Source: an uncultured Psychroserpens sp.
GTDB taxonomy: Bacteria; Bacteroidota; Bacteroidia; Flavobacteriales; Flavobacteriaceae
Length of the DNA stretch: 64,000 nt
NCBI RefSeq assembly: GCF_947492715.1
Contig: NZ_CANLNS010000003.1
Location: forward strand, 124,001-188,000
Reading direction: 5' to 3'
In this document: in pieces, positions 31,547 to 42,207 of the stretch
How positions within the stretch are numbered: position 1 is the first letter of the stretch
Layout of the letters: each line of letters opens with the position of its first letter
The notes under the pieces: generated by a model
The model's database searches: none
Told to the model about the DNA's origin: nothing
What the model saw: the letters and a program-made list of their open reading frames with translations, nothing else
Made by a program: the position numbers and the translations under genes

Positions 31547-31577
31547 TTGTATTTCAACCGATATTCGGTTACTTTCG
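31547..31577 (+). promoter_or_regulatory. Promoter of the leucine-rich-repeat gene
   Basis: TTG (31547-31549), 20 nt, then TACTTTCG (31570-31577), one mismatch from TAnnTTTG. The predicted start is about 30 nt before the ATG at 31613. The upstream frame extension to 31547 runs through this promoter and is not coding. Confidence 0.5.
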
Positions 31578-31612
31578 TAGTAGAAATTGTTGCCCAAAAC
31601 AAATCTACTATT

Positions 31613-32527
31613 ATGAAAACCGCTAGAATAACATTGTTAATGTGTCTTGTTACCTTATTGTCCTTTGGTAGCATTTCAACAAAAGAAAAAGAGGCTTTAA
31701 AAGATTTATATGCCTCAACAAACGGACCTCTTTGGAGAACCACTTGGAACCTTGATGCCCCAGTTAAAACTTGGCATGGTGTTGTTGTTAAAGACGACAA
31801 AGTGATCGCCCTAAATCTAGAATTTAATGGATTAAGAGGAAAACTTCCAGAATCACTTGGTGACCTAATTCACCTAAAACATATCAATTTTTTTAGAAAT
31901 AAACTTACAGGAGCAATTCCAGTATCTATTAAAAACTTAAAATCTCTTGAGACTTTAAATATTGCATTTAATATGCTTAATGCACCATTACCAAATGAAA
32001 TTGGTGATTTAGAATCTTTGAGAAAATTAAAATTGTTTATGAATACTATTGATGGGGAAATTCCTGCTAGTATCGGACAATTATCAAACTTAAGTACCTT
32101 AGAGTTGTATAGTAATCAATTGAGTGGAGAATTACCAAGTACAATTGGTGGTTTGGTGAGCTTAAAGAAAATGATGCTAAGTAGTAATAAGTTATCTGGT
32201 AAATTACCATCTAGCATTTCTAATGCTAAAGATTTAAAAATATTAAGTGTATTTGATAATAATTTCTTCGGAATGTTGCCTAAATCAATTTGCAGCCTAG
32301 CTAGTTTAGAAGAGTTAGTTTTATCAGACAATGCATTTTACGGCAACTTGCCAACAGACATGGCTAGTTTAACGAATTTAAAAGTATTATTAATAGGAAA
32401 TAATGATTTTAAAGGAGAGCTAGTGCAATTGAAAAAGCAACTACCAAATCTTCAACAATTTGATTTTGTAAGTATGAAATCAGATGGTGTTATTGTAACC
32501 TTAGATGAAGATGAAGACGATAATTAA
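31613..32527 (+). CDS. Secreted leucine-rich-repeat protein
   Basis: The 304-residue protein has a signal peptide (MKTARITLLMCLVTLLSFG) and an N-terminal cap (EKEALKDLYASTNGPLW, then W-x-GV). About nine plant-type LRRs follow (LxxLxxLxLxxNxLxGxIPxxIGxL), and the tail is acidic (DEDEDDN). Such LRR solenoids mediate protein binding at the cell surface or outside the cell. No T9SS sorting domain is seen, so the Sec route to the periplasm or outer membrane is more likely. The ATG at 31613 is chosen because it gives the signal peptide; the longer frame opens with TTG. Confidence 0.85.
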   Translation: MKTARITLLMCLVTLLSFGSISTKEKEALKDLYASTNGPLWRTTWNLDAPVKTWHGVVVKDDKVIALNLEFNGLRGKLPESLGDLIHLKHINFFRNKLTGAIPVSIKNLKSLETLNIAFNMLNAPLPNEIGDLESLRKLKLFMNTIDGEIPASIGQLSNLSTLELYSNQLSGELPSTIGGLVSLKKMMLSSNKLSGKLPSSISNAKDLKILSVFDNNFFGMLPKSICSLASLEELVLSDNAFYGNLPTDMASLTNLKVLLIGNNDFKGELVQLKKQLPNLQQFDFVSMKSDGVIVTLDEDEDDN

Positions 32528-32641: not shown

Positions 32642-32714
<73 letters not shown>

Positions 32715-32724
32715 CTACTAAAAC

Positions 32725-32762
32725 ACCCTAATTACTTATAATTAAAGTAGTTAGGGTTTTTT
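32725..32762 (+). terminator. Element-borne terminator behind the tRNA
   Basis: A 13-bp stem (32725-32737 with 32745-32757, one G-U pair) closes a seven-base loop and runs into six T. It replaces the tRNA's displaced native terminator. Confidence 0.85.
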
Positions 32763-32768
32763 GATTCT

Positions 32769-32794
32769 AAAATCTTCCCAAAATCTTCCCAAAA
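32769..32794 (+). repeat. Left-end doubled repeat (possible integrase arm site)
   Basis: Two tandem copies of AAAATCTTCCC followed by AAAA, 26 nt in all. An identical 26-nt block in the same orientation lies at 42030-42055, inside the opposite end. This is the expected pattern for arm-type integrase binding sites. Confidence 0.65.
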
Positions 32795-32812
32795 CAGGAA
32801 TGTTAGAGTTTT

Positions 32813-32832
32813 CTAATAAAGTTTTTTATTAG
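32813..32832. repeat. Inverted repeat in the left-end non-coding region
   Basis: CTAATAAA-GTTT-TTTATTAG, a perfect 8-bp stem in the 130-nt stretch between the left repeat and the first small gene. It may be a weak terminator for the minus-strand cassette or part of the recombination site. There is no clear U-tract. Confidence 0.35.
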
Positions 32833-32924
32833 GTGTCAGAGAAAATTCATTCCTAAATTTTAATGGGGGTGCACCTATAAAAAGATAGTTGGGTAGGGGC
32901 TTTGCAAATGGGAGGTTATTCGAT

Positions 32925-33089
32925 TTATCTATTTCTAAGATTACGCACTTTTTGGATTAGAACATCTACTTCTGCAATTCTTTCTTTTTGAAATTCTTTA
33001 GAAGGATAGTCCTCGTACTCCTCAAATGCTCTTTTTCTGTAGCTGAGAGCTTCTAGTATATCACTTATGTCTTTTCCTGTTAATTCCAT
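32925..33089 (-). CDS. 54-residue ORF at the 3' end of the cassette
   Basis: The ATG at 33089 lies 10 nt after the stop of the receiver-like gene on the same strand. The product begins MELTGKDISDILEALSYR and ends VLIQKVRNLRNR. It is strongly helical and charged, with a heptad-like pattern, and has no signal peptide. I do not recognise the family. The tight spacing and lack of an overlapping frame support a real gene, perhaps a small partner or antitoxin-like subunit (inference). Confidence 0.6.
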   Translation of the reverse strand: MELTGKDISDILEALSYRKRAFEEYEDYPSKEFQKERIAEVDVLIQKVRNLRNR

Positions 33090-33099
33090 AGTAGCAAAA

Positions 33100-34848
33100 T
33101 TAAAATTGTGAGAAATCTACGTCAAAGTCATTCCTAGATAAGTATTGCATAAAATTTTGAAGTAAATCTGTCGAATAAGGTTCTTTGTAGTTTTTGATTC
33201 TCTGAATACCGAAATCAAATGACTTATTTTGAGTGTTAAAAATGTTTCTCCCTCCTAATTTTAGTTCCTTAATACATTCAGGTGTTTTGAAAAACGGGGT
33301 CAATTTATCAACACTTCCTTTTAATTCCGTTGGTAATTGCGCTTTAATATCATTAAAAGCTACATAAGCATTACCCTGCTTTTTGAAAACCGAATGAATT
33401 TTGGTATATCTTTTAATTAAGGGAAAATGTATTAAAGGATTACTTATCTCAGTAATGCTTAAATCCATTTTAGCTATCCCATCATCATTAAATACACATA
33501 AGTCCATAATATCTAAGGAAACTGTTTTAAAATTAGGGAAATCGGCATAAGTTCTTGTTTCTGGAGATATACTTCTTAGCTTGCAATATCTTACAGTAGA
33601 TAATTCTTTATCTTCTCTTGATTTATCTACTAGAGGAACTATAAAGGCTTTATTGTAATCATAATTTCTTTTTCCACTTTTTCTAATAGCAAGATTACAG
33701 GGTTGAGAAAGTAGAATATATTTTTTTTGACCAATCTGAAATATATCTCCGTTTGAAATTGGAAAATATAATTTGTTTATGATGTCTTTTTCATAATATA
33801 CCTCTCTTTTGTGTATAGCTATTGCATTCTGGTCTTTGTGAGGGAATTGATAACCAGTTTCCTCAAAGTCTAAATCTCTAATTTTAGACATTGAAGTTTC
33901 AAAAGAACTTTTAGTTGCATCATCTGTAAAAAGCTTGTAATTGGAATAATTTTGAAGAATCTTATGCAATCTAAACAATGAATTAGCTTCCCAAATACCT
34001 TCGTGTACTGATGCTTTCTGAACTATTAGATTAAAAGTCTTTGGCGATAGTGATTTCAGTTCTTCAATTGCTTCTGTAAAGCTATTTTCTAAAATTGATA
34101 TTGATTTGTCTTTTAGGTCTTCAATGTATTTAAGTGATATAATATTCTTTATCCCTTCGGCAAAAGCTGCAAGTTGTGGGTCAAATGCAAATCTCTTCTT
34201 TGAAATAGTATAAAATAATTTAGCATCAACATCGTAAGTTGAAGAATAAGTAAATCTAGTTTCGTCTTCATCTTCTATACTATATTTATGTGAGAAGATG
34301 CCACAGCAAACCTTCTCATTAAAATCGCTCTCTATTATTAGTTTTGCCAAATGAACTCCGTTAGATTCACCATTTTTACCAGACCAATTTTCAAACTCAA
34401 AGTCAAATAAACATAAATGCTTTTCACCATCCTCTAAACTTTCTAATTCATCTTTATGTTTAGCAACCCATTCGTCAGGTGTAAATAGTTCTACAATATC
34501 ACCTAAAACTTGTTTAATTTCCAAAGCAGGTATTATATTGGAACTAATATCATTATCTATATATGAGCATATTCTTTGCAATGAAATAGTCTGGTCATTA
34601 TTTTTCCAATATTCATTTATTTGCGTTTCGAATACTGGGTCAGGAGAAGTCCACTTTATATTAGAAAATTCAGGATAATCTGTTGCACTAGGAGGATTAC
34701 CACTAAACTTAACAGCTTTCATTTGACCTATGAAAAACTGCTTTTGCTCATTGGTGTCAAATTTATCATCAACATAAAGTATTTTCTTTATATTTTCTTT
34801 TTTAAGCAGGCTTTTAATAGAGTTAATAGCTTTTTCTGTTTCCTCCAT
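33100..34848 (-). CDS. Receiver-like protein with large insertion and unknown C-terminal domain
   Basis: The 582-residue soluble protein starts with receiver-domain landmarks separated by a long insert. The acidic pair Asp27-Asp28 is in KKILYVDDKF. A phospho-acceptor-like Asp149 is in CLFDFEFE. Ser186 is in GIFSHKYS and Lys217/218 in TISKKRF. Between the first and second landmarks lie about 120 residues instead of the usual 30. The C-terminal 340 residues contain a beta-rich segment (GDIFQIGQKKYILLSQPCNLAIR, listed here by its ends GDIFQIG and SQPCNL) of no family I recognise. The stop of the kinase-like gene is 2 nt upstream. I infer it receives a signal from that protein and may be the output component. 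Confidence 0.7.
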   Translation of the reverse strand: MEETEKAINSIKSLLKKENIKKILYVDDKFDTNEQKQFFIGQMKAVKFSGNPPSATDYPEFSNIKWTSPDPVFETQINEYWKNNDQTISLQRICSYIDNDISSNIIPALEIKQVLGDIVELFTPDEWVAKHKDELESLEDGEKHLCLFDFEFENWSGKNGESNGVHLAKLIIESDFNEKVCCGIFSHKYSIEDEDETRFTYSSTYDVDAKLFYTISKKRFAFDPQLAAFAEGIKNIISLKYIEDLKDKSISILENSFTEAIEELKSLSPKTFNLIVQKASVHEGIWEANSLFRLHKILQNYSNYKLFTDDATKSSFETSMSKIRDLDFEETGYQFPHKDQNAIAIHKREVYYEKDIINKLYFPISNGDIFQIGQKKYILLSQPCNLAIRKSGKRNYDYNKAFIVPLVDKSREDKELSTVRYCKLRSISPETRTYADFPNFKTVSLDIMDLCVFNDDGIAKMDLSITEISNPLIHFPLIKRYTKIHSVFKKQGNAYVAFNDIKAQLPTELKGSVDKLTPFFKTPECIKELKLGGRNIFNTQNKSFDFGIQRIKNYKEPYSTDLLQNFMQYLSRNDFDVDFSQF

Positions 34849-34850
34849 AT

Positions 34851-37322
34851 TTATTCACTAACGTTATTAAGGTTAAGGGAAAAGATATACTTATTACTAA
34901 ATTCATTTCTTTTCGGTTCCAATACAATCGAACAACCTGATGAGTCTAACAATTGTTGAGTAATAAAAAGACCTAACCCTCTTCCTTTAGCTTTTGGTTT
35001 CATAGTAGCGAAAGGTTCAAATACTTGGTTTTCAATTGAATTTGAAACTCCATATCCGTTGTCACTTATTGAAACCCAGGGCTTACTTATCTTGATTCGG
35101 ATTTCAGCCTTAAATTGAGATTCTTTTAATTGCTTTTCATTTAGCCAGTATTCAGAATTGTTTAATAAATTATCTATGACTTGTGTTAGTTTACCTTTAT
35201 TAATTCTTATTAAGAAATCTTCTATCACTTCAACACTAAATTTTATGTTTTTTGTTGAGAAGCGATTATTGTAATATTCTTCTTCTTCCTTAAAATACTG
35301 ACTCAATTTAAATGAATCTCTTTTTTCTTTGTTGTATTTTAATGATGGGTCTAAATGTTTTAGTTGAACCTTTAAGCCATTTACAGTTGAATTAATGTAT
35401 TCAATTAATACAAAAATATCAGAGTCAGTTAGGTTGTTGTTTTTAAGTTTTTTACTGTAAAACATCGACCTTTCATTAAGTCGTTCTGCAATAGTTGCAA
35501 ACTCGTGACTAACAGCCTCTGCTGTTAAACCTAAACTTGCTAATTCAGCAAAATTTTCTAATTGTTCTTCTAAGATTTCAATTTTCGGTTCAAGAATGTT
35601 TATCACATCCTCTATTTTTTCTGTTTTGCTAATTATCGAATTTGCCTTTTTTAATGCAGATTCTGCTTTATCTATATCAGCGAGTATTAACTCAATTGAT
35701 TTAGCAATTTTAGCTGTTTCTGGAGTGGATAAAAGGCTAGAGGAAGAATTTTCCTTGTGTATTTTTGTTAATTCACTTTTTGTATTGCTAAGACCTTTTT
35801 CTGCTTTTTTGCTCTCTTCAATATTTTCTTTTGCTTCCTGAGCAATTGATTTTCCTGTTTGAACAGCCTGTGATTGTGTCTTTATAGAACTCTTTTCAGT
35901 TTTAAACTCTCTTATAAATGAATTATAGTCTCTTCGAACATCGTTTAAGTAAGAGTTTATCCTATCTCTTATAAAATAAGCAAGTAGTACAAAATTGTCA
36001 GAATAAGGATTCGTAATGAATCCCTGTCTATCAGTTTTGTCAGTTAAATTTTTATTTACTCCTTCATCAATTAAGAAATAGCCAATCACATTTCCTGGTC
36101 TTAACGAATAAAATGACTTGCCAGTAGTTTTGTCATCTCCCAATTTTAACCAATCTCGACTATTTTCAAAGCCATAAGGTAAAACAGCAAATCCATTCCT
36201 ATATATTTTAACTCCTAATTGGTTGAGAGCAAATGCTTTGTAATTCTTTATTCCATCAAAAACATTTTTTATACTTTCGTCTCCTTCTAGCCATTTGTCT
36301 AATAAATAGTCATTCAATTTCCCTTTGAAGTTGCCTGGGTTGGCAATATCTCCATCTAAATAGTGTAGTTCTGGTATTTCATTCAGATGAAAAGATTTCT
36401 CAAATGAAAAAATAAACTTTTCATTTTTAGATTTTTTAATGTATTCTCTACCCTTTTTCGATAAAAGATACTCTGCAAATTTTGCTCCATTATCTGGTAA
36501 GAGATATTCGTAGTAGTCTTCCCTTTTTAAATTTTGACCAAGAAACTTTTCAAGTTTGGTATCTCCCTTTATAGTTAGTTTACTTTCTTTAAATTCGAAC
36601 GAATAACTCGCTATGGCTAATTCATTTAAAGCTAATTGAGTTTTTTCTAGGTCAATATTTTCATTATTCAACTTTAAATAAACATTGAAAGGGTGCTTAT
36701 TATTCTCCTTATATGGAGAAATCAATTGTATTATTTGAGCTTTGAATCTTTCAAGATTTGTACCTTTCCATACTGAATTATCTCTTAAACCTGAAAGGAC
36801 AATTTTTGTTCCTTTATTGTTAATTTTGAAAGACTCATTCTGAACTGTAACTTTACTTAGGGTGGACGTTGTTTCAAAATCCTTCCAATTAAAACCTACG
36901 TGTATTCCGTTATTATTTTCTTTTTTTGTGTATAATTCACAAACATCTGCAAGTCTTTGGGTGCTTAATCTACCTAATCCTTTATCTCCGAGTGGAGTGC
37001 GTTTCTTTTTTGTTTTTTTACCTAATTTTTTAAAGCTTCTTTTAGTGGATGCAGAAATCACAAGCCAGGAATTAATTATGGTTGATTCATCCATACCATC
37101 CCCATCATCCTCTACAACTATGTAACCTTTTTTTCCTGAGTAAAATAATTCGTCAGATGAATATTCATCGGTAGAGTTTATTTCAATCGAAACATAAGAT
37201 GAGTCAGCATCATAAGAATTTTTAATCAATTCCATAAGAGCTGTCACTTCATCTGGAACTAACTCTTCTCCAAGTTGTTTAACAATATGCGGAGTTATGT
37301 CAAATTTATATTCATTACTCAT
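34851..37322 (-). CDS. Dual GHKL ATPase: MORC/Hsp90-like N-terminus fused to a histidine kinase core
   Basis: The 823-residue cytoplasmic protein has two ATP-binding GHKL modules. The first (about 1-200) is MORC/MutL/Hsp90-like: N-box ELIKNSYDAD (31-40), G1 EDDGDGMDE (71-79) and G2 GDKGLGRLS (112-120). After a middle region and a long coiled coil (about 470-595) comes a kinase core: H-box with His606 in AVSHEFATI, N-box DNLLNN (717-722), G1 DNGYG (754-758) and G2 GRGLGL (780-785). There is no membrane helix or PAS domain, so the stimulus is probably intracellular. It sits 7 nt after the methyltransferase and 2 nt before the receiver-like gene. Confidence 0.85.
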   Translation of the reverse strand: MSNEYKFDITPHIVKQLGEELVPDEVTALMELIKNSYDADSSYVSIEINSTDEYSSDELFYSGKKGYIVVEDDGDGMDESTIINSWLVISASTKRSFKKLGKKTKKKRTPLGDKGLGRLSTQRLADVCELYTKKENNNGIHVGFNWKDFETTSTLSKVTVQNESFKINNKGTKIVLSGLRDNSVWKGTNLERFKAQIIQLISPYKENNKHPFNVYLKLNNENIDLEKTQLALNELAIASYSFEFKESKLTIKGDTKLEKFLGQNLKREDYYEYLLPDNGAKFAEYLLSKKGREYIKKSKNEKFIFSFEKSFHLNEIPELHYLDGDIANPGNFKGKLNDYLLDKWLEGDESIKNVFDGIKNYKAFALNQLGVKIYRNGFAVLPYGFENSRDWLKLGDDKTTGKSFYSLRPGNVIGYFLIDEGVNKNLTDKTDRQGFITNPYSDNFVLLAYFIRDRINSYLNDVRRDYNSFIREFKTEKSSIKTQSQAVQTGKSIAQEAKENIEESKKAEKGLSNTKSELTKIHKENSSSSLLSTPETAKIAKSIELILADIDKAESALKKANSIISKTEKIEDVINILEPKIEILEEQLENFAELASLGLTAEAVSHEFATIAERLNERSMFYSKKLKNNNLTDSDIFVLIEYINSTVNGLKVQLKHLDPSLKYNKEKRDSFKLSQYFKEEEEYYNNRFSTKNIKFSVEVIEDFLIRINKGKLTQVIDNLLNNSEYWLNEKQLKESQFKAEIRIKISKPWVSISDNGYGVSNSIENQVFEPFATMKPKAKGRGLGLFITQQLLDSSGCSIVLEPKRNEFSNKYIFSLNLNNVSE

Positions 37323-37329
37323 TCCTCAA

Positions 37330-38634
37330 TTACGTCTTAAAGATTAATATTTTCTCTTTATCCATTGTATTTGAGAAATTATTTCGACCAGGCATTCTTT
37401 TACTTAATATATCACGCTCTAAGTCAATAAATAAATCAATTCCCTTAGATTCAAGTAATTCAATGAGTATTTTATCATTTTGAACTACTTTATTATTGAC
37501 ATTTCTATTTCCGATAGTCCAAGCTTGATATGAATTTTCACCCATTTTGGGTAATATATTGTCAAGTGTTATATCTAAATCATTGATAAAAGAAATAACT
37601 TTTTTAGCCTTTTTCCTTTCATCAATTGAAAAACCATCAAAAAATCTTTTTAAGGAATTAGATTTGTTAAACATCTTTTCCTCTATTTTCTTAAAATCTT
37701 TTGGAAGATTCCCCCCTAAACTTTGAGTGTCTATTTGCTGTATAACTGACAAATAATCAATTGAGATTTCGTCACTAATTTCTTTTATTGGAATCCATTG
37801 TAGAGGAAGGTATGAGAACTGACCATAGGTAACGGTTGTTTGATTATCACCATAAGGAGGTGAGGTTATAAGTAGTCTAAACTGGTCATCAGAGTTGATA
37901 GATTTTTTTGAATCTCCCCATTTCACAGAAGCAGTGTGCTTATAGCTATTATTAATAACCAAGTCCTTATTTTCTAACTCTTGTCTAACATTTAAAATAT
38001 CTTCTACACTTCTTTCACAAATTTTAAAAAAAGATTCAATAGGATTTAATTTTCGTTTTTGTATTTCCTCCTGAGTTCGAATGTGCATTTTAAAGGTAGA
38101 AGTTCGGTCATTACTATTTAATCTAATTGCTTCTGCTAGTGCAACCCAAAAGAATTTTCGAAACTTCAAATTCTCTTCCCTTAAAATGGCTCTTCTAATC
38201 TGCGATAACTGAACTTGAACTTCTTTTTTAAACCACTTATCAATGTTCTTAAAGCTTACATCTATTTTTGATGAGCGACTTCTATTTATTCTTCCTTTTA
38301 ATTCTAAAAAACTATTTTTTAGGGAATATTCATAAACACTTGTTTTGACTTGACTAATTAGTACTGATAGAGGATTAATATCTTGACCAAAAACACTTGC
38401 GCCATATCTCATACCCGTTGTTAAGGCGTTGGACGCACCCATAAATGGGTCAATCATTGATACACCTTCTGGCATATCATTTATCAAAGTTTTAATGATG
38501 GATTCTTGAACTGAGGGAACCATCATTGCAGGATAGTTTAAAATTTTTCTAGCAAAATCTCTATTGTTGTAATATGTGCCGTTAAGAACATCGCTATGTA
38601 TATTAGATAGAGAATTTAGAATAGTTTCATTCAT
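37330..38634 (-). CDS. Site-specific DNA methyltransferase (amino-methylating)
   Basis: The 434-residue protein has SAM-binding motif I (IDPFMGASNAL, 61-71), a motif II-like QDINP (84-88) and the catalytic motif IV TSPPYG (257-262). This identifies an exocyclic-amine (N4-cytosine or N6-adenine) methyltransferase; the S/T-PPY form favours N4-cytosine. Motif I precedes motif IV, with about 190 residues between them holding the likely target-recognition region. No restriction nuclease is adjacent. It is the first gene of the tightly packed cassette, and its recognition site is unknown. Confidence 0.88.
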   Translation of the reverse strand: MNETILNSLSNIHSDVLNGTYYNNRDFARKILNYPAMMVPSVQESIIKTLINDMPEGVSMIDPFMGASNALTTGMRYGASVFGQDINPLSVLISQVKTSVYEYSLKNSFLELKGRINRSRSSKIDVSFKNIDKWFKKEVQVQLSQIRRAILREENLKFRKFFWVALAEAIRLNSNDRTSTFKMHIRTQEEIQKRKLNPIESFFKICERSVEDILNVRQELENKDLVINNSYKHTASVKWGDSKKSINSDDQFRLLITSPPYGDNQTTVTYGQFSYLPLQWIPIKEISDEISIDYLSVIQQIDTQSLGGNLPKDFKKIEEKMFNKSNSLKRFFDGFSIDERKKAKKVISFINDLDITLDNILPKMGENSYQAWTIGNRNVNNKVVQNDKILIELLESKGIDLFIDLERDILSKRMPGRNNFSNTMDKEKILIFKT

Positions 38635-38690
38635 TCATTTTAAAGTATGATGATTTAACCTCTAAAGGTACAAAATGCAATGATGTGAAC

Positions 38691-38698
38691 CAAAAATA
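38691..38698 (-). promoter_or_regulatory. Candidate -7 element for the methyltransferase cassette
   Basis: On the minus strand TATTTTTG matches TAnnTTTG, about 57 nt before the methyltransferase ATG. No clear TTG at -33. The 185-nt gap (38635-38819) also holds AGAGA-GGGG-TCTCT (38806-38818) right after the XRE gene, a weak terminator-like hairpin. Confidence 0.4.
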
Positions 38699-38819
38699 TA
38701 TTTATAAAGCAGGTTTCGTTTTTTTGCATTTTCCTTATATGTTTATATGAGTGGTTTTGCTCGTTTCTAAATCAAGCTAGGAAGAGTTAAAAAAAGCCGT
38801 GTTTTAGAGAGGGGTCTCT

Positions 38820-39089
38820 TTATTCATATTTAGAAGGAAAGTCGAAAAGTGAGCTTAATTCAACTTCAAGAACTTTAGCCAATTTTGCAGCAGTAGAAAG
38901 GGTGAAATTAACTCTTCCATTCTCTATTCTGGAGATACTTGTTTTTTCTACATTAAGGCGAGAGGCAATATCTAATTGAGATAACTCCAAACCTTCTCTA
39001 GTTTCTTTTACTTTAGAGCCGAATTGCTTTTGGAAATATTTTAATTCCTTTTGACTTAGTGTAATATTTTTCTTTTGTGAACTTGACAT
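38820..39089 (-). CDS. XRE-family helix-turn-helix regulator (control-protein-like)
   Basis: The 89-residue protein is a single HTH_3 domain at about 27-82 (VKETREGLELSQLDIASRL, VEKTSISRIENGR) with a short basic N-terminus. It resembles the controller proteins of restriction-modification systems. It is upstream of the methyltransferase cassette on the same strand. A perfect palindrome overlaps its own start codon and a second copy lies 44 bp away, indicating autoregulation. Confidence 0.9.
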   Translation of the reverse strand: MSSSQKKNITLSQKELKYFQKQFGSKVKETREGLELSQLDIASRLNVEKTSISRIENGRVNFTLSTAAKLAKVLEVELSSLFDFPSKYE

Positions 39090-39098
39090 TTATGTCAA
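39083..39098. promoter_or_regulatory. Operator 1, palindrome over the XRE start codon
   Basis: TTGACAT-TT-ATGTCAA is a perfect 7-bp inverted repeat that includes the XRE start codon (39087-39089). Binding there would block its own translation start region and promoter. Confidence 0.6.
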
Positions 39099-39127
39099 TG
39101 ATACTTGTTATATTAGCATCAAGGGTA

Positions 39128-39141
39128 AACATAAATGTCAA
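39128..39141. promoter_or_regulatory. Operator 2, second copy of the motif
   Basis: AACATAAATGTCAA is the reverse complement of TTGACATTTATGTT, matching 13 of 14 bases of operator 1. It overlaps the first possible start of the divergent gene (39135) and is flanked by AGGGT and ACCCT. The centres of the two operators are 44 bp apart, about four helical turns. Confidence 0.55.
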
Positions 39142-39557
39142 CCCTGTTTAAACTCTTACTTATTATGGGACAAAAAGAAATTAGAATTAAGAAGCTAGAT
39201 GTAAAGTCAATGGTAATCCTGATATTTATTCCATTTCTCCTAACTTTCATAATTGAGCATTTCGGAGATTTTAAATATCACGCTAATACTAATGGGAAAA
39301 ACCTTCCTGTAAATCAGATTGATATATTGACAATTAATTTTCACACTCCTTTTGGGAATACAATATGGAGAGATGGTAGTGGTTATACTTATACTGATAC
39401 AGTATTTAAAGGAGGTAAGTTTCATTCCTATAATAATAAACTACCTTATTATCTAAGAGGACTTGCCTCAGATGTTATTTATCCTTTAGTCTTTAGCTTG
39501 ATATTGATAGTATTGTTCTTTCTAAATAAAAAGTATAAGATTAAACTAACCTCTTAA
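39135..39557 (+). CDS. Two-helix membrane protein of unknown function
   Basis: The 140-residue product has one hydrophobic helix near the N-terminus (about 26-44, VILIFIPFLLTFIIEHF) and one near the C-terminus (about 112-131, YPLVFSLILIVLFFL). An extracytoplasmic region of about 65 residues lies between them. An internal ATG at 39165 would remove ten residues and leave operator 2 outside the coding region, which is attractive. It is the only cargo gene transcribed away from the methyltransferase cassette. I do not recognise the family. A membrane effector or a passenger gene are both possible. Confidence 0.6.
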   Translation: MSTLFKLLLIMGQKEIRIKKLDVKSMVILIFIPFLLTFIIEHFGDFKYHANTNGKNLPVNQIDILTINFHTPFGNTIWRDGSGYTYTDTVFKGGKFHSYNNKLPYYLRGLASDVIYPLVFSLILIVLFFLNKKYKIKLTS

Positions 39558-39587
39558 ATAGTAAATCTCTTAGCTAAATCCATTAAA

Positions 39588-39722
39588 ATGAAATCAGACA
39601 ATAAAGAAGAAAATCAAAAGACAGGAGTGTTTATTTCGAAAACGCAAGTCTTGTCAAAAAGAACTAAGTACTCTGACCCTTTGTTTATGATGTACAAAAG
39701 ATTTTCAAAAAAACGTAATTAG
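39588..39722 (+). CDS. Possible 44-residue basic peptide
   Basis: The ATG at 39588 lies 30 nt after the previous stop and opens a 44-codon frame. The product begins MKSDNKEENQKTG and ends MMYKRFSKKRN, strongly basic and without a hydrophobic segment. No homologue is recognised. The frame could be a chance ORF, but it has the same strand as, and close spacing to, the membrane-protein gene. Confidence 0.35.
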   Translation: MKSDNKEENQKTGVFISKTQVLSKRTKYSDPLFMMYKRFSKKRN

Positions 39723-40084
39723 TTATTCGTTTATAGATTTTAAAGAATTATAATAAATTTTATTATCAAATAAGCATCTGTTAATCAGTAGTTTGTAAAA
39801 AACAAATAATATAGAATTTTATGTTTTTGGAAAAGTCAAATCAAATATTTATTTTTACTTAAACCCTTTTAAGCTATAGACAATGATTAGGTGGTCAATC
39901 AAATTCAGGTTATAAAGAATTAAACGAAGATTAACTAAGAGACAGTTATAAAGAACTACTATAGGCTTTTTTTTTCAAGATTTTACTGAATACAAAGATT
40001 AACTACTCAATAGCATTAGTTGAATTGGTCAAAATCTATGATGTACGTGGAATAATCAATAATAATGACTATTAAATTTTATAG
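39723..40084. other. 362-nt gene-free stretch with short direct repeats
   Basis: No convincing ORF. Two 11-nt direct repeats occur: GTTATAAAGAA at 39909-39919 and 39945-39955, and AAGATTAACTA at 39927-39937 and 39995-40005. A run of ten T lies at about 39966-39975. This could be a degenerate remnant, a replication or excision-related site, or nothing. Confidence 0.35.
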
Positions 40085-40450
40085 TTATTCATTTAAGGGT
40101 TTATTAAAATTGTATGTCCCTATGTACTCTGGGTCATTAAGAAGATTTTCTATCTGTTTTATCGAGTATAGTGGTCTTCTTCCATTCCATCCATCTCTCT
40201 CGATAATTCCTCTTCTTTCTCTTTGAAAAAAAGTGCTTCGACTAATTTTTAATCTATCCATCGCTTCTTTTTGAGTGTAATACTCGATTTTTTCTTCTTG
40301 TTTAGGGAAATGGTTTTCTAATAACTCTTTAACACTATAGATTATGTTTTTTGATACGCTCTCGGTAATGTGATTAATTACTAGGTTGGCAATTTGATTT
40401 AAGTCTATTTTTGACTCTTCAATAAATAGTTTTGCAGGTAATGCTTCCAT
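40085..40450 (-). CDS. Helix-turn-helix DNA-binding protein, excisionase-like
   Basis: The 121-residue protein has a helical N-terminal half and a MerR-like HTH_17 domain at about 58-112: YTQKEAMDRLKISRSTFF then GRRPLYSIKQIENLL. Small proteins of this type near a tyrosine recombinase often act as recombination directionality factors or element regulators. It is encoded 196 nt downstream of the integrase on the same strand. A 5-bp palindrome sits 17 nt before its start. Excisionase function is an inference from family and position. Confidence 0.7.
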   Translation of the reverse strand: MEALPAKLFIEESKIDLNQIANLVINHITESVSKNIIYSVKELLENHFPKQEEKIEYYTQKEAMDRLKISRSTFFQRERRGIIERDGWNGRRPLYSIKQIENLLNDPEYIGTYNFNKPLNE

Positions 40451-40466
40451 ACAGTATAAAATTTAG

Positions 40467-40478
40467 GGTGTAAACACC
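40467..40478. promoter_or_regulatory. Palindrome upstream of the HTH gene
   Basis: GGTGT-AA-ACACC, a perfect inverted repeat 16 nt before the ATG at 40450. It is a possible operator for this HTH protein. Confidence 0.4.
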
Positions 40479-40490
40479 ATTAATAAATTA

Positions 40491-40515
40491 AGCTTATCAA
40501 GTTTTTTGATAAGCT
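40491..40515. repeat. 10-bp hairpin between integrase and HTH gene
   Basis: AGCTTATCAA / TTGATAAGCT with loop GTTTT, a perfect stem in the 195-nt gap. On the minus strand it is followed by TAATTTATT, so it may be a weak integrase terminator. Confidence 0.5.
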
Positions 40516-40645
40516 GTCTAATTAAATCTGAATTTGTTGCTGTATGAAATCTTAGATTGACTTTAAAGCCATAATATACCAATAAATAAGTATGCAGATT
40601 TCAATTAAGTAAGTAACAATTTTTGTGCCAAAACACATAGTATAG

Positions 40646-41962
40646 TTAAGAAACTATTTTCATTGAAGACTTTTGAAGTTCTTCCTGTTTCCATAATTCT
40701 CTTACAGCTTCTATGTGACTGTCATTTGAAATCTTTACGTAATCAAGTAGCTGTTTTTCTGAGGCGTGAGTTGTGATAGCAATTATAGTTTGATTGGGTA
40801 TTCTTCCATAGTGATTAGTAACAAAAGACCTTCTGCAAATATGTGAACTTACTAATTGATATTTGGGGTATAATCCTCTAATATCTCTTTTAGTTTCTTT
40901 GTCTTTTTTGTCGCCTAAGATTATTTGAGTAATACCTGCCTTAAAACAAATCTCTTTTATTTTTTCATTGAATTTAATTTCTAATGACTGTGGTGTGATG
41001 CTAAATAAAGGAGGTTGTCCATCTCTTTTCTCTAATGTTTTCTTTACATAAGGATGAATAGGTATTATAGCAGGTTTAGTTGTTTTTTGAGTACTAGTTA
41101 TTACAATGTTATCACCAACTATTTTAAAACGCTTAGAATCTCTTAAATCACTAATTCGTAATCCTGTGTGCAAACCAATAATAAATAGGTCTCTTATCTT
41201 ATCTAGTTCTTCATCTGGGATTTTTAAATTGTAAATAGCATCAATTTCCTTTTCGTTTAAATATGGGTCTAGTGGCTTTCTTCTCTTAAACGTAAAGTTT
41301 TTGCTTTTGTATTCTGGATTAACTGGGTATCCTTTGGCTTCGGCACTTCTGCAAAATGTTTTGATTTGGGCGATATATTTTTCGATGGTAGTATTGCCGT
41401 AAAGACCATCTATTTTTAAAAAGCTGACAAATGCAGAATGAAAGTCAAGATTTATATCTTTATGTCGCAGTCTTCTTCCTTGTTTCTCTTCAAACTCTTC
41501 TAATCTTGTCAAAGTTGTGCCATACTTTTGAATAGTCTTGTGGCTAATAACTCTACCAGTGTCGTTATTAATTCTGTTTTTGGAATCTTCAATAAACTTT
41601 CTTACAAACTCTACAAAGTAGACTTTATATTTGGCTTCTCCTTCATTGAGTTGTTTGTTGAATTTTTTAACGGTCTCATCTAACCATATTTTGTCTATGG
41701 TTTCTCCTTCTGAATATGATTGATTAAATTCTTCTCTTACGAAGTCTTTGAGATTGGTAATCCTTGTTCTCAATTCTTTCATTGGGAATTTTTCTGCAAC
41801 AGAATTGAATCGTTGTTTTTTGTTTGACCACCATTTATTGTTAATTAGGATATTAGTCTTTGTGAAAAGGTCTTTCCTTTCGTTGTTGATTTTCACATTG
41901 AATCTAATGTAAAGGTTAACAGGGTCTTTTTTTGTTTTTGATAAAATTGCAATACTTGCCAT
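40646..41962 (-). CDS. Tyrosine recombinase (integrase) of the element
   Basis: The 438-residue site-specific recombinase has the Bacteroidota arm-binding N-terminus (MASIAILSKTKKDPVNLYIRF is here cut to its motif SKTKKDPVNLYIRF), a SAM-like core-binding domain (about 110-220) and the catalytic domain. The active residues are visible: Arg269 in TGLRISD, Lys293 region, His374 and Arg377 in HICRRSF, His399 in TTHAS and the nucleophile Tyr408 in LLDYVKIS. All are intact, so it should be active. The longer frame begins at a TTG (42031) inside the right-end repeat and is rejected. The nearby att site is 230 nt away. Confidence 0.93.
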   Translation of the reverse strand: MASIAILSKTKKDPVNLYIRFNVKINNERKDLFTKTNILINNKWWSNKKQRFNSVAEKFPMKELRTRITNLKDFVREEFNQSYSEGETIDKIWLDETVKKFNKQLNEGEAKYKVYFVEFVRKFIEDSKNRINNDTGRVISHKTIQKYGTTLTRLEEFEEKQGRRLRHKDINLDFHSAFVSFLKIDGLYGNTTIEKYIAQIKTFCRSAEAKGYPVNPEYKSKNFTFKRRKPLDPYLNEKEIDAIYNLKIPDEELDKIRDLFIIGLHTGLRISDLRDSKRFKIVGDNIVITSTQKTTKPAIIPIHPYVKKTLEKRDGQPPLFSITPQSLEIKFNEKIKEICFKAGITQIILGDKKDKETKRDIRGLYPKYQLVSSHICRRSFVTNHYGRIPNQTIIAITTHASEKQLLDYVKISNDSHIEAVRELWKQEELQKSSMKIVS

Positions 41963-42029
41963 AATCTTAAAGGGTTTAATTAGTAATTTCTTTAGATAAT
42001 TTGAAGCAAGTAGTGTGCCGAAGTTCTTC

Positions 42030-42055
42030 AAAATCTTCCCAAAATCTTCCCAAAA
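42030..42055 (+). repeat. Right-end doubled repeat (possible integrase arm site)
   Basis: Identical in sequence and orientation to the 26-nt block at 32769-32794: two AAAATCTTCCC units plus AAAA. It lies 68 nt upstream of the integrase ATG and 138 nt before attR. It could also let the integrase control its own promoter. Confidence 0.65.
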
Positions 42056-42193
42056 ATACGAAAACAGATTGAAACTTTTATGTTTTAATTGGTGTCGTAA
42101 ATTGGATAAATGTTATGTTAAGTGTTATTTTTAAAGGTGTTTTAAAACAATTGTTAGTTTTATTAAGTTTTGTAGTGTTTCAGTTTTTGTAGA

Positions 42194-42207
42194 CCAGTTC
42201 CCGCTAC
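42194..42207 (+). other. attR core of the integrated element
   Basis: CCAGTTCCCGCTAC, identical to the tRNA 3' end at 32702-32715. Host sequence resumes immediately after. Confidence 0.85.

Follow-up and report, generated by a model that had tools for sequence, protein, structure and literature searches.

A methyltransferase, a MORC-like histidine kinase and a receiver protein form a conserved gene trio, and a candidate defence module, on a tRNA-integrated element of an uncultured Psychroserpens sp.

In a stretch of 64,000 nucleotides from an uncultured Psychroserpens sp. (assembly GCF_947492715.1, contig NZ_CANLNS010000003.1, positions 124,001–188,000; 'the window'), a 9.5-kb tyrosine-recombinase element lies inside a tRNA-Met gene and carries, on the minus strand, adjacent genes for an amino-methyltransferase, a kinase with two ATPase modules and a receiver protein. 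These three genes, which we call the trio, are a conserved, co-diverging unit, and the cargo of the element is real, well conserved and more than that of a generic island. On balance we favour the view that the trio is a self-contained, phosphorelay-driven defence module, restriction-like or abortive in action, carried on a tRNA-integrated mobile element. The functional steps that we infer are set out below, and a system of this kind was foreseen in 2021 (PMC8011034).

RESULTS

Conservation and distribution of the trio

A scan with the kinase alignment, using one genome per species, returned 190 relatives, of which the best 80 were kept and correspond to 77 distinct loci. Although these loci were fetched by the kinase alone, methyltransferase, kinase and receiver genes are adjacent in that order and on the same strand in 69 of them, which is the recurrence in unrelated genomes that the original prediction, made from the letters of the window, had asked for as support. 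Four further loci have the trio rearranged or fused: the methyltransferase gene is convergent and follows the receiver gene in L072 and L078, the order is receiver, methyltransferase, kinase in L081, and in L079 (9290–13090, an Armatimonadetes bin) kinase and receiver share one 1266-residue open reading frame (ORF) without the C-terminal ATPase region of the kinase, which may be natural or may reflect an error in the assembly or the gene. One trio gene is absent at a contig end in L061, L063 and L080, and in L069 the kinase is truncated and a methyltransferase was not found. The trio loci come from Bacteroidota, several proteobacterial groups, Actinobacteria, Planctomycetes, Acidobacteria, Spirochaetes, Lentisphaerae, Anaerolineaceae, Armatimonadetes and a nanoarchaeal bin.

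Correlations between the distance sets of the three proteins are 0.86, 0.89 and 0.83, values that none of 999 permutations reached. This test used 69 loci in which all three proteins are near full length, a set that differs from the 69 loci of canonical order in that three order variants are in and three loci with cut receivers are out. The trio has no fixed fourth gene: when 493 neighbouring ORFs of at least 60 residues, up to four per side of the 77 loci, were clustered, the commonest family occurred at six loci and the next at five, and no nuclease recurred beside the trio.

The trio is rare and patchy. A kinase-domain match was found in all 23 genomes of the genus, the source genome among them, and a full-length orthologue in two (the source genome and G309); at E<=1e-100 a match was present in 2 of 296 sampled genomes of the phylum, again counting the source genome. 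Among 72,556 plasmid records two match the receiver, and among 50,697 phage records two match the kinase. Congeners G296 (L117, 7301–12700) and G317 (L118, 7269–12500) have another GHKL protein, of 775 and 781 residues respectively, with an N-terminus 39–40% identical to the element kinase; its gene is followed in both, in the same order, by ORFs of about 220, about 210 and 530–578 residues. This may be a separate GHKL-based cluster, whose last ORF has a methyltransferase-like motif.

The three proteins

The kinase (34851–37322, minus strand; 823 residues) comprises a MORC-like GHKL module (residues 8–467), a coiled coil and a histidine kinase core (residues 603–823, with H606), as assigned from Pfam, a structure model, a fold search and key residues. 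In the structure model a GHKL module of MORC/Hsp90/MutL type, with MORC3-, MutL- and Hsp90-like matches, is joined to a histidine kinase; the Pfam matches are HATPase_c_3 at the N-terminus and HATPase_c at the C-terminus, and the protein is predicted to be soluble. A GHKL and S5 module with intact ATP motifs, as in MORC and paraMORC proteins, is indicated by the predicted structure and residues, and ATP-binding residues are conserved at both GHKL sites. The original description was of a dual-ATPase kinase; the first ATPase, however, is a MORC-like clamp module and not a second kinase domain. Among the phosphorelay residues (the DHp histidine, the CA motifs and the Asp, Asp, Ser/Thr and Lys of the REC domain), D28 is kept in 64 of 70 loci and the others in at least 69.

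Against PF19191 (HEF_HK) the kinase scores 17.7 bits, under the cut-off of 24.1, and PF19191 is present as a precomputed match in the listed relatives P0126 and P0177. Residues 5–229 match positions 1–209 of NF050001, the profile of the BbrUII/HgiDII restriction enzymes (E 1.1e-23), although the score, 83.7 bits, is below the cut-off of 550; what the N-terminus resembles is the part of BbrUII outside the nuclease. The N-terminus also matches the PADLOC REase_II model (E 1.3e-12); the rest of the BbrUII/HgiDII enzyme is not shared.

The receiver protein (33100–34848, minus strand; 582 residues) was assigned from a structure model, fold matches and residues a REC domain (D27, D28, D149, S186 and K217), a helical linker and a C-terminal effector-like domain (G367, D368, Q382, C384, R389, R550 and R572). 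The REC domain had been recognized in the original prediction, which called the protein receiver-like, but the output domain had not. G367, D368, Q382, C384 and R389, a polar set that includes a cysteine, are invariant in 70 of 70 receivers. The best fold matches of the C-terminal domain, all weak, are MazF, CcdB, ToxN and PemK. The models of the kinase and the receiver indicate MORC-like and REC folds respectively, and the latter hints weakly at a MazF-like one. A Foldseek search with the whole receiver model was insensitive, finding even the REC domain only at E 0.33 with mostly unrelated top rows (MscS, TIM barrels); it pointed to no nuclease fold, which is no proof of absence. No nuclease family and no DNA-binding family matched the receiver in the Pfam and PF19192 scans.

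Assignment of the C-terminal domain by sequence to PemK, one of the MazF/PemK/CcdB toxins, was rejected, since hhalign against 16 PemK proteins gave a probability below 1%. No solved structure resembles the receiver by sequence; a search of the C-terminal domain against the sequences of solved structures gave eight rows up to E 10, the best at 0.26 and none convincing. The domain was also considered as a free-standing protein, but 13 matches in the searched length range yielded no clear stand-alone family. These short matches may be fragments, because all four that were inspected start within the receiver, and two of these start with methionine.

Membership of the receiver in PF19192 was likewise rejected, with no match at E<=0.01 among 57 proteins (the window receiver and 56 of the 75 receivers of the loci). 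The receiver is nevertheless likely to be a distant relative of that family, although the hhalign evidence is weak: alignment A3 gave two collinear blocks with probabilities of 14 and 33% (P 0.002 and 4.5e-4 respectively), and with alignment A1 the probability was below 1%, the PF19192 side consisting of only seven proteins.

The methyltransferase (37330–38634, minus strand; 434 residues) has the motifs DPFMG and SPPYGDN of an amino-methyltransferase and matches PADLOC MTase_II at E 5.1e-91. N6_N4_Mtase was matched in 56 of 61 relatives, the residues for methylation are conserved, and by family assignment the protein is a DNA methyltransferase as found in Type II restriction–modification (R-M) systems.

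Defence-gene setting

The 77 loci have 262 flanking ORFs of 140–900 residues, up to two per side; of these, 137 chosen at random and representing 66 loci were scanned. These matched 203 PADLOC families at E<=1e-10, those listed including GajA, PtuA, AriA, BrxL, pAgo and MTase_II models, whereas in the source genome 137 of the 186 ORFs taken from 20 stretches, scanned in the same way, matched four. These are counts of families, several of which one protein can yield, and the control comes from another set of genomes and is slightly shorter (44,450 vs 48,433 residues). Even so, the contrast is large, and the neighbourhoods are defence-rich as had been anticipated. In Pfam, Phage_integrase was the commonest of the families listed (5 of 137 ORFs), and the matches listed include ArdA (2), HNH_2 (2), BrxL (1) and BsuBI/PstI endonuclease (1).

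Within the element itself, PADLOC matched generic models for a Type II methyltransferase, a restriction endonuclease N-terminus and regulators, together with a weak mad1. The PADLOC, Pfam and NCBIfam scans found no named multi-gene defence system and no nuclease family in the element. The original prediction that the cassette is not Detocs, BREX, DISARM or Dnd stood: none of the eight element ORFs matched a BREX, DISARM or Dnd signature protein in PADLOC, and no TPR kinase, stand-alone receiver or nucleoside phosphorylase, the features of Detocs, appeared in the Pfam-scanned ORFs.

DISCUSSION

Relation to known systems

Detocs consists of a TPR-bearing kinase, a stand-alone receiver and a nucleoside phosphorylase effector. 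The trio would resemble it in the working pair of a kinase and a REC-fused effector, but differs in having no TPR sensor, stand-alone receiver or nucleoside phosphorylase and in having a methyltransferase.

The direct precedents in the literature searched, a search with most subscription journals and bioRxiv preprints outside its scope, are PMC8011034 and PMC2292703. Bellieny-Rabelo et al. (2021; PMC8011034) described a pair of a HEF_HK kinase and a Response_reg_2 receiver (PF19191/PF19192), linked at 91.6% in 644 regions. The pair is over-represented next to R-M genes, for the most part together with C5-methylases, and was tied to paraMORCs. The receiver proteins are there without other known domain, the authors propose signalling that controls R-M systems, and the words 'phage' and 'defense' are absent from the main text. 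Iyer et al. (2008; PMC2292703) reported paraMORC GHKL-S5 ATPases in R-M operons. The original idea of a modification plus two-component-style system thus has forerunners: a related pair and a related operon context had been predicted in 2021 and 2008 respectively, and the trio's kind is not wholly new. An overlapping prediction may already be in print in the DefensePredictor paper (PMC13092281), in which HATPase and REC appear in a figure legend of unvalidated predictions, and the accessible part of the BREX paper PMC12839542 describes no such trio.

Like the HEF_HK/Response_reg_2 pair, the trio has a soluble kinase of HATPase_c_3, DHp and HATPase_c, an adjacent receiver gene and a methyltransferase upstream. 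Unlike that pair, it has an amino-methyltransferase where C5 enzymes prevail, its receiver falls outside PF19192 and its kinase below the HEF_HK cut-off, and no Vsr or nuclease recurs as its neighbour. By its sequences the trio is a branch apart, because of the amino-methylase, the receiver outside PF19192 (0 of 57) and the lack of a recurrent nuclease.

A PF19192 search of the 296 genomes of the phylum matched 14, seven of them over the cut-off. At these seven Bacteroidota loci each receiver gene has beside it a gene for a kinase of 966–1001 residues and beyond it a gene for about 355–368 residues; a simple pattern flagged a C5-type motif in two of the seven, and the partner kinases match the trio kinase profile at only 84–128 bits. 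In the C-terminal motif of the seven receivers, G..CD and the last C-terminal arginine are kept in all and the following arginine in five, whereas D368 (G-D in four, G-T in three) and R389 are conserved only in part. Both branches probably share the output domain, because this partial motif is kept and the profile matches, though weak, are collinear.

The trio shares with MORC and paraMORC proteins of R-M operons (PMC2292703) the GHKL and S5-type module and the association with methylases, but where those proteins carry a nuclease, TIR or other domain, its GHKL module is joined to a histidine kinase core. VcSduA (Shedu type I-D; PMC12137116), a GHKL-nuclease protein formerly annotated as paraMORC3, protects against phage and likewise has a clamp-like GHKL N-terminus controlling an effector. 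It is, however, a single protein with a DUF4263 nuclease, whereas the effector of the trio would be separate and receiver-gated; DUF4263 was not found in the element by Pfam scan.

Proposed mechanism and its alternatives

MORC and MutL clamps work on DNA; REC domains are phosphorylated by HisKA kinases and gate the outputs attached to them. In the defence mechanism that we propose, the amino-methyltransferase would mark host DNA, which the soluble kinase would probe by means of its N-terminal MORC/MutL-type, ATP-driven clamp. On meeting unmarked or foreign DNA the kinase would autophosphorylate at H606 and the phosphate would pass to D149 of the receiver protein, whose REC domain would then release the C-terminal domain. 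This effector, built on a MazF/CcdB/PemK-like scaffold, would attack nucleic acid or otherwise stop the invader or the cell. Sensing of DNA and its methylation, phosphotransfer, effector activity and phage resistance are thus all predicted properties of the trio; that the output domain is the effector we infer because no nuclease gene recurs beside the trio and the domain has its invariant polar set with a cysteine. In its most specific form, which we put forward only tentatively, the kinase clamp would read the mark of its own methylase and His–Asp transfer would arm a private effector with a MazF-like scaffold and a new active site (G-D, Q-x-C-[DN], R, R, R).

It is rather unlikely, in our view, that the trio is instead a regulatory two-component system whose output domain binds DNA or protein and controls the methyltransferase or distant R-M genes. 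Signalling control of R-M was suggested in 2021 (PMC8011034), SH3-like folds occur in binding domains too, and a separate XRE regulator on the element shows that control matters; the invariant cysteine-containing set (70 of 70) in a domain without a DNA-binding family match and the absence of a recurrent nuclease or target gene (no neighbour family exceeding 6 of 77 loci) speak against it. A single phospho-gated restriction complex, in which the receiver C-terminal domain is a site-specific DNA nuclease docked on the clamp-kinase, a Type II-like enzyme split over two proteins, would account for the dedicated methyltransferase in the operon and for the likeness of the kinase N-terminus to BbrUII/HgiDII and REase_II. 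We consider this unlikely too, and a shade more so: known Type II enzymes have no need of the signalling step implied by the preserved His–Asp residues, and searches of the receiver turned up neither a nuclease fold nor a nuclease family, although one may have escaped them.

The trio might also be a selfish addiction device that retains the element in its host; the methyltransferase would be the antidote and the receiver the killer. That R-M systems can behave as addiction modules is noted in the discussion of PMC8011034, and the trio does lie on a mobile element with an integrase. At other loci, however, Phage_integrase accounts for only the 5 of 137 flanking ORFs noted above while defence models abound, and the receiver is in only two plasmid records, so that we regard addiction as improbable.

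The integrated element

The 14-bp core CCAGTTCCCGCTAC occurs exactly twice in the window, at 32702–32715 (attL) and 42194–42207 (attR), both on the plus strand. The first copy forms the 3' end of the integration target, the tRNA-Met(CAT) gene at 32642–32715 (plus strand; ARAGORN), which is the sole tRNA gene of the window and, by our own reading of the three G:C pairs closing the anticodon loop, appears to be of the initiator type. Insertion is supported because an uninterrupted site, running unbroken from the tRNA anticodon arm through the core into the sequence to the right of attR (ACAAGCCAAA), is present in 2 of the 23 genus genomes; the source genome, one of the 23, gave no such match, as expected. 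One of the two genomes with an empty site, G309, has its trio copy on another contig. The element has 29.8% G+C, against 34.0% in the rest of the window. With a repeat at the tRNA 3' end, an integrase inside and empty sites in relatives, the integrated element of the original prediction is confirmed, as are its coordinates.

The tyrosine recombinase (40646–42031, minus strand) matches Phage_int_SAM_5 (E 5.9e-10) and a XerA-like model (E 6.7e-14), and its reading frame is open, so that it is intact as first described. Its start is more likely the ATG at codon 24 than the listed TTG, because the latter overlaps the right-hand repeats. The expected doubled repeats are present at both ends, where the 11-mer AAAATCTTCCC occurs in tandem on the plus strand at 32769–32790 (starts 32769 and 32780) and 42030–42051 (starts 42030 and 42041); the arrangement is what would be expected of arm-type integrase sites, and a fifth copy lies elsewhere in the window in the opposite orientation.

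In congener G315 (L160) an integrase 55% identical to this one, with one internal stop, adjoins the same att core and downstream sequence, and a second, partial core, GTTCCCGCTAC, lies 169 bp away; these may be traces of a site that was used more than once. In the 18 kb around that integrase no tRNA was found. Directly left of the tRNA gene of the window, outside the element, is a gene for a leucine-rich-repeat protein (31547–32527; LRR_14, E 1.5e-25).

Regulators and small ORFs

The cargo order and gaps had been read correctly: an XRE regulator gene precedes the methyltransferase gene by 185 nt, and gaps of 7, 2 and 10 nt follow between methyltransferase, kinase, receiver and a 54-residue ORF (32925–33089, minus strand). 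Relatives of this last ORF stand behind the receiver gene only in L043 and L076. The 89-residue XRE regulator (38820–39089, minus strand) is like R-M control proteins (HTH_3, E 3.9e-12; Control_protein, E 4.1e-11). Over its start lies a perfect palindrome, TGACATTTATGTCA (39084–39097), a possible operator, with a half-site, ATGTCA, at 39135, between the XRE gene and a divergent 140-residue ORF; autoregulation is possible. A related ORF of 66–95 residues, possibly a regulator, stands directly before the methyltransferase gene or the trio in 5 of the 77 loci (L006, L008, L010, L046 and L081).

The genes named in the original cargo list are present, but two had gone unmentioned. The 140-residue ORF (39135–39557, plus strand) had no family match in the Pfam, PADLOC and NCBIfam scans. 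The 121-residue HTH-like ORF (40085–40450, minus strand) weakly matches HTH_17 (0.049) and could encode an excisionase-type or regulatory protein; it also matches mad1 (E 1.6e-5), but no other mad gene matched in the element.

Implications

If the proposed mechanism is true, two-component signalling would be wired directly to the discrimination of self from non-self DNA, an arrangement that we did not find described in the literature searched. It would join MORC ATPases, two-component phosphorelays and R-M, which are usually studied apart, and it proposes an output domain for the receiver family of 2021, which in PMC8011034 is without other known domain. If it is correct, what a prokaryotic MORC-type clamp senses becomes directly testable, because the kinase fused to it offers a simple read-out in biochemical assays; to our knowledge, the role of MORC ATPases in prokaryotes is largely unknown.
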